From positions 1-64,000 of the forward strand of contig PAZC01000060.1 in the NCBI GenBank assembly GCA_002716045.1: a stretch of DNA of 64,000 nt. The letters run 5' to 3'. The notes below the pieces were generated by a model. The model was not told the origin of the DNA. It saw only the letters and a program-made list of their open reading frames with translations, and made no database searches. Shown one piece after another: positions 7,803 to 31,494 of the stretch (positions are counted from its first letter, which is position 1; each line of letters begins with the position of its first letter). This DNA is from Opitutia bacterium (GTDB lineage Bacteria > Verrucomicrobiota > Verrucomicrobiia > Opitutales > Seribacteraceae). The position numbers were made by a program, and so were the translations under genes.

Positions 7803-10595
7803 TTAAAGGAAGTTGAGGAGCGATGTGTTCATCATGTGGGCACCAACTTGTATGGCGGCTTGATAAGCAGTGGTTGCCCGTGTCATTCGAACGATGGCCT
7901 CGGAAAGGTCGACGTCGATGTCCTTGGCAATCCGCTGATCCAAGCCCATGAAGTATTCCTCGTCATGCTTTTGGACAGTTTCCATTCGAGCCATTTTTGC
8001 CGCTACTTCCCCCATTTTATCGACAACCTTGTCTTCCAGAGCAATCAGCTTCTGATTCGCAGCTTCTACTTCCGTCGCATAAGTGGAGGGCTTTGCATTC
8101 CTGAGAGCGTCTCGCAAGCTAATCATGGAGTCAACCACGTCACCCAAGTCCTTTGTGCCACCATTACTGGCTTCCAGATAATAAGATATCTTACTTCCCT
8201 TACCTATGTAAGTCTCGGCATTTTTTTCGTTGCCGTTGTAGGTGACGTCTATGACCTCACCTTTGGAATTTCTATGCGAGAGGAAGGTCTCGGAACCCGT
8301 GGCAAAAGAAAAGGTGTCTTGCAGTCTTGGTGAAGTCGGAAGGTTCATGTCGGCTGCCTCGGCAGGCATTTTGAAACCGAAAACTTTGCCATTGTCACCT
8401 ATCACGTCGACTGTGATCTCTACGCCTTCAGAGGTGCGAACCACAGCGCTCTGCGGCATTTCGTCCTCATAGGTGTAGCTGCCGGCCTTCGTTAAGCGCA
8501 AGCCCACCAGGCGACCACTGGCGTCAACGACAGCTTCGGCCTCGGCTCCTTCTCCTCCTCGAGTGGGCGGGGCAATGATCACCTCGGGCCAATCCGAGCG
8601 ATCCGCCCGGAATTTAGCGACGTGTCCGAAAGATTCACCAATCGGCAACCATGCGTCGTTTTGAACAAGATCTCCATTGGAGTTGTGGATGTATTCATCA
8701 TCCGGGTAGACCAGATAATTATCCACCAAGTCAAGGGGATCAAAAGCCAAATTCTTGAAGTTGTCCTGTAAGCATTGCCAGTAGCGATTCTTGTGGTAAA
8801 CAATGTCACCAGTGTTGTAAGTGCGCCCCTGATTCCAGTCTAAGCCCTGAGGGCTCTCGTAAATCGAGACCTCTTCAAGCTTGGAGGCATTTGTGGGATT
8901 GCTGGGATCAAAGGCGGCAACATCGCCATCCGTGGTGAAGTCCGAAAGAACGAAATAAAATTTATTTGCTGAAAGATCGTGGAGATATTCTCCCTTTATC
9001 AGGCTTTGGTTTTTGGTGGAATCAAGAACCGTATTAAAGCCCGATCTGGGCAAAACTTTCCCCAAGTTCAAGAAATCTGCAGTTGATTCAGCGGGGCTTG
9101 AGGGCAATCCAGATAGATCAGCTTCTTTAGGTACTGATTGGAGAGCTTTGTAGTATTGGCCATCATATACAAATATGTCATTCTGCTGATACGCACTGTT
9201 GGTCAATCCTCCAGTCCCTGGCTCTCTAAGTAGATTGCCAGTTATTTTGCTACCTCCCACATTTTCACCATTGGCCGAAGCGGTCAAAGTGTACTCCAAT
9301 GTACGGGGATCGAAACTAACGCGGGCGGCAGCGCTTTCAGAGCCAATCGCTTCAAACTGAGCCACACTCATCGTAACTTGACTTATTCCGGTATACATCG
9401 AGTCCAGCGTAGCTTGTGGTGTTTCGACGTCGGCGCTTTGATTAAGAACGGAGATGACATGATTTTGGGCATCCGTCAGGTCTTCGAAAAGCCAACCATC
9501 TGGCGTGAGATTGTAGGCCTTATACTCATGCGACGAAACATTCAGGTTCCAATCTTCTCGCAGAACGTCGTAGGTCGAATCGACCTCTTTCCACGCTTTT
9601 GCTAGATTAGTATCAGGGAAGCGGTTGAAGTTCTCGTCTGTCTGAGACTCCCAGATCTTGTCGTTGTAATAGACGAGTTCGCCTCTGTTGTATGAAGTGA
9701 GGCGTTGCCAGTCGGCTGGATGCGTGAGCGCGATATTGGTAGCTTCAGAAACTTTACTCGATGTTACTGAGAGGCTTCTGGTCCAACGACTCCCCTGTCG
9801 TCTCGTATCATTCGGGAATTCATATTCAGGGTCAGCGTCCGTTTCATATTCTGCGGTAAATTCGAAGTCTTCGTCAACTGCGCCATAAAGAAGAAGGTTA
9901 TTCTGGACATCCAATTTGGCCTGAATGCCAGTCTTGCGATTATCAGCATTTATTTTGTCTCGCAAAAATGCCGCAACAGCAGAAGCACTTTGAGCTACAT
10001 CACCAGTTTTATCATTAATGACAGTAGCAGTATCGATGACGTAAGGTCCCTGCCCCGCGACTTGAAAAGTAAATTTGTCGCCTACTTTAAGATTTTCGGG
10101 AATATAATTATCTGCCAACGACAATTTCTTTTCAAACCTTTGTCCTTGAATTACGTCTGTTGATCCAAACTTAGGAGTAGTGTATGTACCTCCAAACAGG
10201 GCTTTCTTTCGGTGTGTGGCATTAATCCGATTGAGGGCTTCCTCCAAGAGTTGGTTCATCTCCTGGGCATTTGTTTCCATCGCGACGTAGTTCAATCCAG
10301 AGCCTGAAGTACGGGCAAGCTCTTGAGATCGGACACCCAGCTCTCGGAGTTTATCGAGATTAAGGTGTGAGGCGTTTAGATATTCCGTGGCGTATGAAGC
10401 ATTGCGCTGATACTGGACGAGGCTATTTTTTTCCGTCTCCATTCGAACGAGACGCCCCATCTTCATCCCATCGTCCTCGGGCAAAGTAATCGATTGCCCG
10501 TCTGAAATTTGCTTCTGGAGATTTAGCTGGCGCTGATCCAGCTTCTTGATCACGTCGAGAAGATTCTCGGAAGTCGTGACATTTGGTACTCTCAT
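7803..10595 (-). CDS. flgL: Flagellar hook-associated protein 3 (FlgL), giant form of 930 aa
   Basis: FlgL-like N-terminus (MRVPNVTTSENLLDVIKKLDQRQLNLQKQISDGQ...LFGG) and C-terminus (DLSEAIVRMTRATTAYQAAIQVGAHMMNTSLLNFL) around a very long central insert. Confidence 0.88.
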   Translation of the reverse strand: MRVPNVTTSENLLDVIKKLDQRQLNLQKQISDGQSITLPEDDGMKMGRLVRMETEKNSLVQYQRNASYATEYLNASHLNLDKLRELGVRSQELARTSGSGLNYVAMETNAQEMNQLLEEALNRINATHRKKALFGGTYTTPKFGSTDVIQGQRFEKKLSLADNYIPENLKVGDKFTFQVAGQGPYVIDTATVINDKTGDVAQSASAVAAFLRDKINADNRKTGIQAKLDVQNNLLLYGAVDEDFEFTAEYETDADPEYEFPNDTRRQGSRWTRSLSVTSSKVSEATNIALTHPADWQRLTSYNRGELVYYNDKIWESQTDENFNRFPDTNLAKAWKEVDSTYDVLREDWNLNVSSHEYKAYNLTPDGWLFEDLTDAQNHVISVLNQSADVETPQATLDSMYTGISQVTMSVAQFEAIGSESAAARVSFDPRTLEYTLTASANGENVGGSKITGNLLREPGTGGLTNSAYQQNDIFVYDGQYYKALQSVPKEADLSGLPSSPAESTADFLNLGKVLPRSGFNTVLDSTKNQSLIKGEYLHDLSANKFYFVLSDFTTDGDVAAFDPSNPTNASKLEEVSIYESPQGLDWNQGRTYNTGDIVYHKNRYWQCLQDNFKNLAFDPLDLVDNYLVYPDDEYIHNSNGDLVQNDAWLPIGESFGHVAKFRADRSDWPEVIIAPPTRGGEGAEAEAVVDASGRLVGLRLTKAGSYTYEDEMPQSAVVRTSEGVEITVDVIGDNGKVFGFKMPAEAADMNLPTSPRLQDTFSFATGSETFLSHRNSKGEVIDVTYNGNEKNAETYIGKGSKISYYLEASNGGTKDLGDVVDSMISLRDALRNAKPSTYATEVEAANQKLIALEDKVVDKMGEVAAKMARMETVQKHDEEYFMGLDQRIAKDIDVDLSEAIVRMTRATTAYQAAIQVGAHMMNTSLLNFL

Positions 10596-10621: not shown

Positions 10622-13600
10622 TTAACGAATCAAGCCCATGACGACTAACTCAAGCATGCTGTCCAATGTAGTCACAACCCTTGCCGAAGCCTGAAAAGCT
10701 TTTTGGTAGCGCATCAAGTTGGCCACTTCTTCATCTATGGAGACGGCGCTGATTGCCTGACGCTCATCTATCAGCAAACCTTCCACCATTTGTTGATGCT
10801 CCAAGTTGTCCACTACATCGCCCAAGGTGTTGCCGACATCCGTGACGAGCACAGAGAGTTGTTCGGTGAAATCCCCGTTGCCCAACTCGGCAATGCCGAG
10901 GGCAACGTCGTTGGCTTCAGGTTCGGATGAATTGCTGGCAACAAGATTATCTAGCGTAAAGCCATTATCGAGATTCAATGCCTTGGCCAAATTTCGATCA
11001 TCTTTGATTAAGGTATCAAATGTGAAATTGTCGCCAAAGATAAAGGTATTAGTACCTTGCTCCATGCGAAAGGGGATCTCGTCATAAGCAAGGATGTGGC
11101 TTCGTCCGTCATCTTTGGTGTTCGCCAAGCCATCTGCCCCGACATAATCCATGTCATTCTCGATGGTGACGTTTTTCATCCGTCGAGCCCCAACGTAAAT
11201 CTTGCTGAAGCTTGGATCTTCAACCAATAATTCACGATCCGTGTTTCGATCCTCAGGAAAAAATGCAGAGGCATTGACGATGGTGAATGTGTCTGTCTCG
11301 GAATATGGAATCGTTATGTCGACCTCATCTCGATATAGATTAAGGTTTCCATCGCCCTGTTGATCAGGATACAACTCGTTCTTTCCTTGAGTTGCGCGAG
11401 ATAGCATGCCGGGAAATCCGAATACATACTTGCCCGGTTCGTCTTCCGGATTGTAGATTTGATTGACCTTGGCCACGACGTCGCCGACCAAAGTGTTCAG
11501 CTTCTTCCTGAAGCTCTCCATCTCAACGTGGCGAGCTTGCTGATAACCATGAATTGAGCCCGAGGTGACGTCCAAAGCGACGTCATCGATGAAAATGCTG
11601 TCTACAAGCGAATAACCGGAGCCCGCATTGGTGATCTTGAATCCAACAATTTGACCTTCCTTCACTATGGCTTCTGCAGTTGCGACTGGGCTACTGGCGG
11701 TACTGCCGGAACCAGTGGCGTCACTTGGATAGACGTAACTGAGGTTGACTGCAGTGAATTTGTCGGCGTCAAATGCCTGACCAGTGCGAGAAGCGATAGT
11801 GCCATCCGCTAGCTTGAAAGCATTGACCTCTGCTAAGTTAGCGGAAGTATTTGGGGCGAATCCTCCCGAAGTGGTATTTCCTGAAGTGCTGAAATCAGCG
11901 AGAGCTTGGTAGTAACGATTGTTTTCTCCATCGAAAAGATAGTCGCCCTTGACGAAAGACTGATCCTGTGTGCGTGAAAGAATCTGCTCTTGGCCGAGAA
12001 TAGGCAGGTCCGCTCCCAGTGTGAGAAAAGCCGTGCCGCCAGCAGTGAGATCCTTTTCTCCGGCAGTGGCAGCAAGATTATCTAGGCTGGCTCCTTTGGC
12101 CAAGTCTAGAGTGGCTTGATAATAGATGCCATTGTAGGAAACAACATCCCCTGCTTGGTATGCTTGGGTTGCCACAGCTCCAGCTGCATTTGGATCAACG
12201 CCTGTTTCCGTGACAACTGGTCCGATGGAACCAATGGCTTGATAATACTTTCCGCCGTTTTCGACGAGATCGCCTACCTTGTATCCAGTGGTCCGAGTTT
12301 TGGCCAAGTCATAGCTGGCTACGCTCATCGCATCAGGTATGGCTGTTAGCTTAAGAAATTTCGTGGTGTCTGAAAGCTGTGCGCCAGTTTGAGCAGTCGC
12401 ATCCGCTTCCGTAACATCCCAGGGCAAAGTATCAACCAGGGCTTGATAATAGTTTTCTCCATCAACAACAACGTCACCAGCCTTGTAAGGTCTCAGCGTG
12501 ATATCTGCCGGGAAACCGTTTACTACGACATCAGTGGTGGAATCAGTCAGTCCATCGGTTGTTCGAGTATATTTGGTTGAGGAAGTTGTTAGGTTCTCGA
12601 CAAGACCAGAGGCAACAAATGCAGCTATCTTTTCTGCTACGGTTGCGGCGGCAGCGGCAGTAGTGGTTGCTGTAGTAGCGGTAGCGGAAGGATGCGTGAA
12701 GGTAAAATTAATTGCAGCGGCGGTGTCATCGTAACCACTTCCGCCATCGAGTATCTCCACTCCGGCCAACTTGCCTTCGGAGTCGATGACAGCTCGTATC
12801 TTGGCGGCAGTGGCACCATCCGCTGCCGGGGTGTTCATTGTGTAATTGAGCTTATCGTCAGCGGATAAGGTTTTGGCTCCGGTGGAATCAAGTAAAACAA
12901 TGGCAGCGCCATCCTTGCCCTTGACCGAAAGATTGATTAAGCCAGTCCCTTCTCCCGTGGCTGCGTCAACGTCGTCGGTTGCGGTGTAGTCTAAAATCTT
13001 GGAAAGATCCTCTAGAGCTTTTTGTCGAAGATCTCTCAGGTCTGTTGCCCGCCCCTTGCCCTGTAGTTCGAAACGACGAATATCCCGATTCAGGAGATGG
13101 ATTTTGGCCAACAAATCATTGGCTGTCTTGACTTCATTTGCAACCGTCTCGGTGAGGTCGTCCTCAAGCCCCTCGAAGCTCTCGCCCATTTCATTGATTC
13201 GGGCAACTAAAGCCTTGGCCTTGTGCATTAACTCCTGACGAACCGATTCCTCAGTTGGAGCAGCAGATAATTCCTGATAAGCATTGAAGAAGTCATTCAG
13301 GGCGCGGGTCAAGCTTCCGGGAGCAAGATCCGACTCATGCATGTCGTCAAGTCCGGCGTTAAGCGACTGGCGGTTTACTTTTTCACCTAAAATCAGTTGA
13401 AGCAAATCGAGGATTTCCTTACGAGCTTCCAGCGACCCGCCTCCGCCGACTTCTGCAATGACTCGTCGATCCAGTAAATCGCTCCTGAAGTGGTCGAGTC
13501 CATCCGCGCGCAAGCCACCAGTGGAAAGCGAGAAATCGTCAGCATACATGTAGGCTTCTTTGGCAAGAACCCTTTGGCGAGCGTAATTGGGATCATTTAC

Positions 13601-13690
13601 ATTGGATAGATTCTTCCCTGCAACATCCGCTGACTTCGCGTGATAACGCAAAGCCTGCGAGTTTTTGAGAATTTCTCCTATGAGTCCCAT
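10622..13690 (-). CDS. flgK: Flagellar hook-associated protein 1 (FlgK), giant form of 1022 aa
   Basis: FlgK-like N-terminus (MGLIGEILKNSQALRYHAKSADVAGKNLSNVNDPNYARQRV) and C-terminus (SIDEEVANLMRYQKAFQASARVVTTLDSMLELVV). Confidence 0.9.
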   Translation of the reverse strand: MGLIGEILKNSQALRYHAKSADVAGKNLSNVNDPNYARQRVLAKEAYMYADDFSLSTGGLRADGLDHFRSDLLDRRVIAEVGGGGSLEARKEILDLLQLILGEKVNRQSLNAGLDDMHESDLAPGSLTRALNDFFNAYQELSAAPTEESVRQELMHKAKALVARINEMGESFEGLEDDLTETVANEVKTANDLLAKIHLLNRDIRRFELQGKGRATDLRDLRQKALEDLSKILDYTATDDVDAATGEGTGLINLSVKGKDGAAIVLLDSTGAKTLSADDKLNYTMNTPAADGATAAKIRAVIDSEGKLAGVEILDGGSGYDDTAAAINFTFTHPSATATTATTTAAAAATVAEKIAAFVASGLVENLTTSSTKYTRTTDGLTDSTTDVVVNGFPADITLRPYKAGDVVVDGENYYQALVDTLPWDVTEADATAQTGAQLSDTTKFLKLTAIPDAMSVASYDLAKTRTTGYKVGDLVENGGKYYQAIGSIGPVVTETGVDPNAAGAVATQAYQAGDVVSYNGIYYQATLDLAKGASLDNLAATAGEKDLTAGGTAFLTLGADLPILGQEQILSRTQDQSFVKGDYLFDGENNRYYQALADFSTSGNTTSGGFAPNTSANLAEVNAFKLADGTIASRTGQAFDADKFTAVNLSYVYPSDATGSGSTASSPVATAEAIVKEGQIVGFKITNAGSGYSLVDSIFIDDVALDVTSGSIHGYQQARHVEMESFRKKLNTLVGDVVAKVNQIYNPEDEPGKYVFGFPGMLSRATQGKNELYPDQQGDGNLNLYRDEVDITIPYSETDTFTIVNASAFFPEDRNTDRELLVEDPSFSKIYVGARRMKNVTIENDMDYVGADGLANTKDDGRSHILAYDEIPFRMEQGTNTFIFGDNFTFDTLIKDDRNLAKALNLDNGFTLDNLVASNSSEPEANDVALGIAELGNGDFTEQLSVLVTDVGNTLGDVVDNLEHQQMVEGLLIDERQAISAVSIDEEVANLMRYQKAFQASARVVTTLDSMLELVVMGLIR

Positions 13691-30642: not shown

Positions 30643-31494
30643 TCAACGTTTCAAGTTCACTGCTTCTTGCAAGATAGTATCGGAAACCGTAACTACCCGT
30701 GACCCTGCTTGAAAGGATCTTTGGTGGGTGATCATGGCTGCAAATTCATTGGTCAAGTCCACATTCGAGAGTTCCAGGGTATACTGTCGGACTTTTCCGA
30801 GGGGACCGGTGTCGGGTATAGTCCCGGCAGTCAGTCCGGCGATATTCGAACCGCCCGGACCATTAGAGTAAAGCCCATTGCCTTCCCTGATCAAGTTTTG
30901 AGATGCTGTGAAGTTCACTAACTTCAATTGCCCGATCTCTCTTCTGAGATCTTGAGTGCCATCGTTGATCAAAGCGAAAACCTTGCCTTTTTCATCTATT
31001 TGTCGAGCTAAGAGGGTTTCTCCTTCTGCTGCGGCAATTTTCAGATCTCCCTCTTGAGATTGCAGGCGATATTGATTTGAGTCACGGGTGACGATTGTGC
31101 CGTCAACCAAACTCTCAAAACTGCCAGCACGAGTATAGAAGGTTTCGGCGGTAGTTGGATTTACGACAACAAAGAAGCCTCCTCCATTGGGACGATTACC
31201 CCCATCGATCGCAAAATCGAGATCAAGCCCAGTAACATCGAAGGCTCCTTGCTTGAAGTTAGAGGCAACGGAAGAAATATCAGTTCCCGATCCATATTCA
31301 GCGACTTGATTGGAAGGATTTCCTCCAACCGGAGTTTGGGAACGTTGTTCGTACTGATAAAAATTGTCAGTAAAACGGGCACGAGCTCCTTTGTAACCGA
31401 CGGAGTTTACGTTAGAAATGTTATTACCAAGCAACTGCATGCCCTTAGTTATACTCTTCAGGGCAGAAACTCCGTTGTATAGTGAGGAAATCAT
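30643..31494 (-). CDS. flgE: Flagellar hook protein FlgE, short form of 283 aa
   Basis: GVSALKSITKGMQLLGNNISNVNSVGYKGARARFTDNFYQ...LSNVDLTNEFAAMITHQRSFQAGSRVVTVSDTILQEAVNLKR; immediately after flgD. Confidence 0.85.
   Translation of the reverse strand: MISSLYNGVSALKSITKGMQLLGNNISNVNSVGYKGARARFTDNFYQYEQRSQTPVGGNPSNQVAEYGSGTDISSVASNFKQGAFDVTGLDLDFAIDGGNRPNGGGFFVVVNPTTAETFYTRAGSFESLVDGTIVTRDSNQYRLQSQEGDLKIAAAEGETLLARQIDEKGKVFALINDGTQDLRREIGQLKLVNFTASQNLIREGNGLYSNGPGGSNIAGLTAGTIPDTGPLGKVRQYTLELSNVDLTNEFAAMITHQRSFQAGSRVVTVSDTILQEAVNLKR

Follow-up and report, generated by a model that had tools for sequence, protein, structure and literature searches.

The window analysed here, a stretch of 64,000 nucleotides from contig PAZC01000060.1 of an uncultured Opitutales assembly, encodes the flagellar junction proteins FlgK and FlgL in adjacent genes, each interrupted by a large central insert (Table 1). 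The ends and the helical D1 domain of FlgK are conserved: the protein exceeds the TIGR02492 cut-off, its Pfam matches are FlgK_D1 (PF22638) and Flg_bbr_C, and its AlphaFold model (pLDDT 70.5) aligns with 2d4y at a Z-score of 25.7. FlgL matches TIGR02550 with 115.9 bits (E 2.7e-33), falling just below the cut-off of 127.2 because of its insert, and also matches Flagellin_N. Its ends and fold are likewise conserved, and the best alignment of its AlphaFold model (pLDDT 74.1) is to the Salmonella junction chain 9go6_V (Z 19.3). In both models the insert lies between the two halves of the core, where outer domains sit.

Table 1. Flagellar genes and modules in the window, numbered from its first letter
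Feature	Position	Strand	Residues	Remarks
flgL	7803..10595	-	930 aa	Large central insert; directly after flgK
FlgL GSGY-type beta module	8430..8582	-	aa 672-722	Iterated GSGY HMM 33.1 bits
FlgL module 3	8616..8843	-	aa 585-660	Best Pfam CBM_5_12 stretch aa 587-611
FlgL module 2b, divergent	8844..9035	-	aa 521-584	Homologous to FlgK module 4 (blastp)
FlgL module 2	9036..9221	-	aa 459-520	Homologous to FlgK module 3 (blastp)
FlgL module 1	9570..9725	-	aa 291-342	Module HMM iE 4e-7
flgK	10622..13690	-	1022 aa	Large central insert; TIGR02492 176.1 bits, cut-off 170.75
FlgK GSGY-type beta module, copy 2	11573..11698	-	aa 665-706	Iterated GSGY HMM 38.2 bits
FlgK module 4, divergent	11795..12004	-	aa 563-632	FVKGDYLFDGENNRYYQA; module HMM iE 2e-4
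FlgK module 3	12005..12190	-	aa 501-562	Nucleus AYQAGDVVSYNGIYYQAT; module HMM iE 2e-9
FlgK module 2	12191..12334	-	aa 453-500	Nucleus YKVGDLVENGGKYYQAI; module HMM iE 2e-6
FlgK module 1	12335..12508	-	aa 395-452	Nucleus YKAGDVVVDGENYYQALVD; module HMM iE 4e-7
FlgK GSGY-type beta module, copy 1	12686..12829	-	aa 288-335	Iterated GSGY HMM 41.2 bits
Hook-type protein, probably FlgE	30643..31494	-	283 aa	No insert; contrast case

The FlgK insert contains three clear modules and one divergent module of the form Y-x-x-GD-V...YYQA. The initial annotation had quoted three strings from FlgK, RPYKAGDVVVDGENYYQALVD (about aa 400-420), TGYKVGDLVENGGKYYQAIG (about aa 468-487) and QAYQAGDVVSYNGIYYQATLD (about aa 509-529). 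All three were found, in this order, within about aa 400-529, and SFVKGDYLFDGENNRYYQALADF (about aa 577-599) is the fourth, divergent copy. The span it had given to the modules, 11590-12810, corresponds to about aa 294-701 of FlgK, the entire insert between the conserved halves. A second type of module, the GSGY-type beta module, flanks the array in the FlgKs listed, with one copy on either side, and has a single copy in the FlgLs listed. One or more GSGY copies are present in 25 FlgKs and 25 FlgLs, with no match in a shuffled control; the module is also found in a giant flagellin, and its motif in further exported proteins of the family. A 1170-aa flagellin of the same-genus relative, Opitutia bacterium SP241 (PBLJ01; L147:14091-17603, + strand), contains six GSGY-type modules and no match to the first module type.

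Similarity between FlgK and FlgL outside the terminal domains, on which the initial annotation had staked its claim that the two carry the same class of module, was evident in blastp. Residues 504-630 of FlgK are collinear with residues 462-584 of FlgL (36% identity, E=4e-17), and all of the strong similarity lies in the middle of the proteins, outside the conserved ends. An iterated module HMM was built on the nucleus of about 20 residues and searched against the flagellar proteins of relatives, as had been proposed. It yielded 143 stretches of at least 12 bits in their FlgK/FlgL set; neither a shuffled control (1.3 million residues) nor other open frames (227,629 residues) gave any, which places the pattern well above chance. 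In a held-out test, each block profile was trained on a single protein. With FlgL as the sole source (FlgL-only profile), 25/25 family FlgKs and 0/6 outgroup FlgKs were detected, and the FlgK-only profile detected 25/26 family FlgLs and 0/6 outgroup FlgLs. Together with conservation across the family, these results strongly support a common module class. That the modules reflect chance, low complexity or an assembly artefact has a vanishingly small probability: the shuffled and reversed controls rule out chance and low complexity, as does the E value of the FlgK-FlgL match, and an artefact is contradicted by the identical architecture of the same-genus relative (77% identity) and by many independent assemblies.

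The module family noted initially is thus real; what the annotation missed is that it is a recognised one, carbohydrate-binding module (CBM) family 5/12. Pfam CBM_5_12 (PF02839, cut-off 26.2) matches FlgL with 38.6 bits and FlgK, thinly, with 27.4 bits, the best FlgK stretch being aa 507-526 in module 3. At E<=0.01, 20/22 family FlgLs are matched compared with 4/24 family FlgKs, indicating that the FlgK copies are more diverged than those of FlgL. In Foldseek, both models retrieved the Vibrio chitin-oligosaccharide deacetylases, which contain CBM12 domains (prob 0.91-1.0), as well as flagellar proteins and fibres of flagellotropic phages. VIA-align superimposed FlgK residues 568-633 on residues 385-434 of the CBM12 domain of 4nyu (Z 6.0, rmsd 2.0, 49 aligned residues), and also listed the chitinases 4tx8 and 4mb3, with Z-scores of 5-6 being modest. 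The block sequence profile, searched against the PDB, gave only chitinase and deacetylase chains, each of them weak (E 0.2-4.4). Because these individually modest scores agree, we assign the FlgK and FlgL modules to CBM family 5/12 by sequence and predicted fold. No enzyme domain was found in FlgK or FlgL by Pfam at E values up to 10.

Some further structural matches were recorded. Baseplate or tail-fibre chains of the flagellotropic Agrobacterium phages Milano and 7-7-1 (PDB 8fqc, 9rkv) match the FlgK model, with residues 24-72 of 9rkv_M aligning at a Z-score of 7.6 and 29% identity in VIA-align, and the Milano chain matches the FlgL model as well. A phmmer search of FlgL against PDB sequences gave nothing significant; its best match, All3316 (PDB 7b5h, E 0.29), covers FlgL aa 296-323 (about 9627-9710 of the window), and the two have the pattern W..Y..GD.VYYN..WE in common.

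Chitin is gripped by a [YW]-W pair in CBM5 (residue roles from PMC8449059), and the corresponding columns were read after HMM registration of 155 modules. The CBM5 pair was present in none of the 155; the second and third columns after the Ala are aromatic in 0/155 and 1/155 modules, and the CBM12 Trp column in 4/155. A different aromatic pair (YY) is kept in 117/155 and 152/155 modules. The fold-core tyrosine and a D/N-rich position are also kept. The missing aromatics weaken a straight chitin-binding reading.

The module also occurs outside the flagellum. In three proteins of relatives (L168:296-979, L169:315-995, L172:300-1007), CBM_5_12 lies C-terminal to cytochrome c oxidase subunit IV, with COX4_pro and CBM_5_12 both above their Pfam cut-offs and the CBM12 tryptophan position retained; one idea is that this fused module may bind peptidoglycan. 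Since the canonical aromatics are missing from the flagellar modules, and since the module is also found on COX subunit IV, the sequences make a chitin adhesin an unlikely role for FlgK and FlgL. A 4127-aa open frame on contig C43 of the same genome has two weak CBM_5_12-like stretches (about 73856-74779; 24.2 and 14.7 bits, below the cut-off).

Within the flagellum, the modules extend beyond FlgK and FlgL. Another contig of the genome carries the genes for a 1231-aa FliD and a 668-aa flagellin. The FliDs of three relatives match CBM_5_12 with 43.2, 28.5 and 26.7 bits; the 1231-aa FliD contains motif-like stretches that fell below significance in the held-out test. The 668-aa flagellin (E 1.7e-6) was among 12 flagellins detected by the FlgK-only profile, and a second family of the order contributed two of the 12. 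Giant flagellins with modules are mostly encoded near fliD, and a 559-aa flagellin of another family carries a related module (45.4 bits). No module was detected in the 283-aa hook-type protein, or in the many flagellins of 300-380 aa from these genomes. The hook-type protein has NCBIfam matches of the FlgE/FlgG subfamily, none above an equivalog cut-off, and is called FlgE because gene order places it after a FlgD-like gene. With FliD and the giant flagellins matching, and the hook-type protein and small flagellins not, the modules mark filament-side axial proteins and not the hook. The extent given initially, FlgK and FlgL, was therefore right as far as it went, and omitted the FliD of relatives and the giant flagellin.

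Other features of the flagellin genes were observed alongside. Flagellin_N matches number 10 in the genome, and as many as 33, some contamination included, in a relative; the genes mostly encode 300-380 aa, plus one or a few giants per genome. A 2065-aa flagellin of this genome (contig C15, L146:3291-9488, + strand) has a beta-propeller-like insert between its flagellin ends, with PF13570 just below and PQQ_2 above the cut-off. Between fliD and the giant flagellin lies an MptE-like gene with a weak Maf glycosyltransferase match (contig C14, L104:9361-11175, - strand), which suggests flagellin glycosylation.

To place the enlarged proteins phylogenetically, sequences from the family, the order and the phylum were compared. 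Complete FlgKs of the family have 1020-1724 aa and complete FlgLs 930-1483 aa, a two- to three-fold enlargement, and none of the complete FlgKs and FlgLs found in the family lacks modules. In the order's other families, FlgKs measure 460-502 aa and FlgLs 297-315 aa, with the exception of one FlgL of 513 aa that carries a single weak module. Among 387 genomes of the phylum, a sample with few or no further members of this family, clear full-length FlgK open frames have about 460-560 aa, the sole exception being that of this genome (1027). A 122-position block profile searched against 384 genomes of the class, again with few or no further family members, found this genome alone, so that the block looks family-specific. 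Enlarged FlgK was seen only in this uncultured marine Opitutales family, which is called marine on the strength of the names that related isolates and assemblies bear.

In a tree of the blocks, copies cluster mostly by orthologue across genera and not by genome, with the deep forks unresolved. The modular architecture is therefore at least as old as an early ancestor of the family. The 36% match within the genome had raised the possibility of recent gene conversion between flgK and flgL, which was rejected on the same grouping. When the two same-genus genomes are compared, nonsynonymous change is low against synonymous change; because synonymous sites are saturated in most segments, the information lies in the low nonsynonymous change alone. 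By this measure, the module copies are under purifying selection. The initial proposal of a shared function rather than random expansion is borne out in its second half by orthologous inheritance, purifying selection and the related modules in other filament-side axial proteins; a shared function is plausible, as an inference.

We hypothesize that the modules are exposed at the surface and form a multivalent binding collar on the flagellum's filament side, a reading based on sequence and predicted models to which we give a probability of roughly 45%. The CBM5/12-fold arrays would lie between the core halves of FlgK and FlgL, in the outer region of each protein, with the GSGY modules alongside. 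FlgK and FlgL are each assumed to assemble as a ring of 11 subunits, the arrangement in Campylobacter and Salmonella (PMC12221982). About 22 subunits with 3-4 modules each would then surround the filament base with a collar of some 70-90 small, aromatic-rich faces, and the cap and giant flagellin would match it with related modules. Such a collar would act multivalently on a polymer, with low affinity per module. The polymer would most likely be an extracellular glycan, whether a polysaccharide of algal or exopolymer origin, the capsule of the cell itself or the glycans on its flagellins, and the ligand is probably something other than plain chitin.

A binding collar is supported by the CBM_5_12 matches, the predicted fold, the held-out cross-detection, orthologous conservation and the kept aromatic pair. 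The insert position between the core halves and the Maf-type glycosyltransferase-like gene near the giant flagellin also count in its favor, as do glycan binding by flagellar cap and filament proteins elsewhere (PMC8306008) and the bulky outer domains of Campylobacter jejuni FlgL (PMC12221982). Against it stand the loss of the CBM5 [YW]-W pair and the CBM12 tryptophan in essentially all flagellar modules, and the divergence of most FlgK copies beyond Pfam detection. The module need not be an external adhesin, because it also occurs on cytochrome oxidase subunit IV. In MB11C04, a related, flagellated genus of marine Verrucomicrobiota studied in diatom blooms, flagellar proteins were abundant late in the bloom (PMC8857213); clade-specific probes detected mostly single cells that were not particle-attached (PMC8857213), which also counts against a collar.

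The loss of the canonical sugar-gripping residues is what would be expected if the CBM fold had become a protein-protein block with its sugar site discarded. The modules of FlgK, FlgL, FliD and the giant flagellin would then pair with those of their neighbors, as a structural collar or outer-domain sheath that stiffens or thickens the junction and proximal filament. We consider this less probable than surface binding, though a serious competitor: the module family is common to proteins that are in mutual contact in the flagellum, flagellin outer domains form sheaths by dimerising (PMC8931119), and the bulky D2 of C. jejuni FlgL contacts FliD (PMC12221982). However, the module is missing from most flagellins of these genomes, and the variation in module number, spacing and protein length between genera is awkward for a fixed lattice contact. 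It is because module number and spacing vary between genera that we favor surface binding over inter-subunit contacts; such variation is easier to reconcile with an exposed surface than with a lattice contact, nonsynonymous change stays low, and the choice is one of judgement. The modules might also have no dedicated shared function, representing near-neutral expansion of outer domains, in which a versatile beta module spreads through the exported proteins of the lineage and is tolerated in surface loops. The occurrence of the module in COX subunit IV, a 389-aa protein and the 4127-aa open frame, that of the GSGY module in other exported proteins, and the dispensability of flagellin outer domains in many bacteria (PMC8931119) all fit such a history. 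It is nevertheless improbable, given that every complete FlgK and FlgL of the family keeps its modules, that copies are orthologous across genera, that nonsynonymous change is low relative to synonymous change, and that the hook protein and small flagellins lack modules. We tentatively extend the binding collar to a coordinated CBM5/12-derived decoration of FlgK, FlgL, FliD and a dedicated giant flagellin, and not of the hook, which could provide a polymer-binding collar and tip and let the flagellum double as a sensor or anchor that engages polysaccharides multivalently through a re-tooled, non-chitin face.

Comparison with the CBM5/12 modules of chitinases and chitin-oligosaccharide deacetylases (PF02839; 4nyu, 3wx7, 2rts) shows the same profile and predicted fold, with the first core tyrosine and the GD-V...Y pattern present in the FlgK and FlgL modules. 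Unlike those enzymes, FlgK and FlgL lack the chitin-binding aromatics and a catalytic domain, and the hosts are flagellar axial subunits. Inserted and duplicated domains in flagellin are already known (PMC5595980, PMC6248924). The giant flagellins of marine gamma-proteobacteria are also axial proteins enlarged by duplicated central domains (PMC6248924); there, FlgL-like proteins are shorter and it is the flagellin that is enlarged, by a duplicated DE domain whose description makes no mention of CBM5/12, whereas here FlgK, FlgL and FliD are enlarged too. Flagellinolysin, a flagellin with an inserted metallopeptidase (PMC5595980), likewise places a functional domain in the outer region of an axial protein, but there an enzyme resides in flagellin, whereas here non-catalytic, binding-type modules reside in junction proteins, cap and one flagellin. 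The large FlgK and FlgL of Campylobacter (PDB 9gsx; PMC12221982) include an enlarged FlgL with a bulky D2 in the hook-filament junction, with no carbohydrate mentioned for it in the accessible text of that report. Pseudomonas aeruginosa FliD and FliC bind host glycans and are functional analogues for the proposed role; the accessible text describes no CBM5/12 module in them (PMC8306008). A literature search that covered few subscription papers returned incidental co-mentions only; none of its papers connects carbohydrate-binding modules with FlgK or FlgL.

Discussion of variable outer domains usually concerns flagellin alone, with junction proteins regarded as passive adaptors. In these uncultured marine bacteria, the adaptors are the most consistently decorated parts of the flagellum, and carry a recognisable sugar-binding-type fold. 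If the modules bind only each other, a carbohydrate module has been turned into a structural part. If they bind polymers, the filament base would be an attachment or sensing site, and the base and tip of the flagellum may double as a binding surface.
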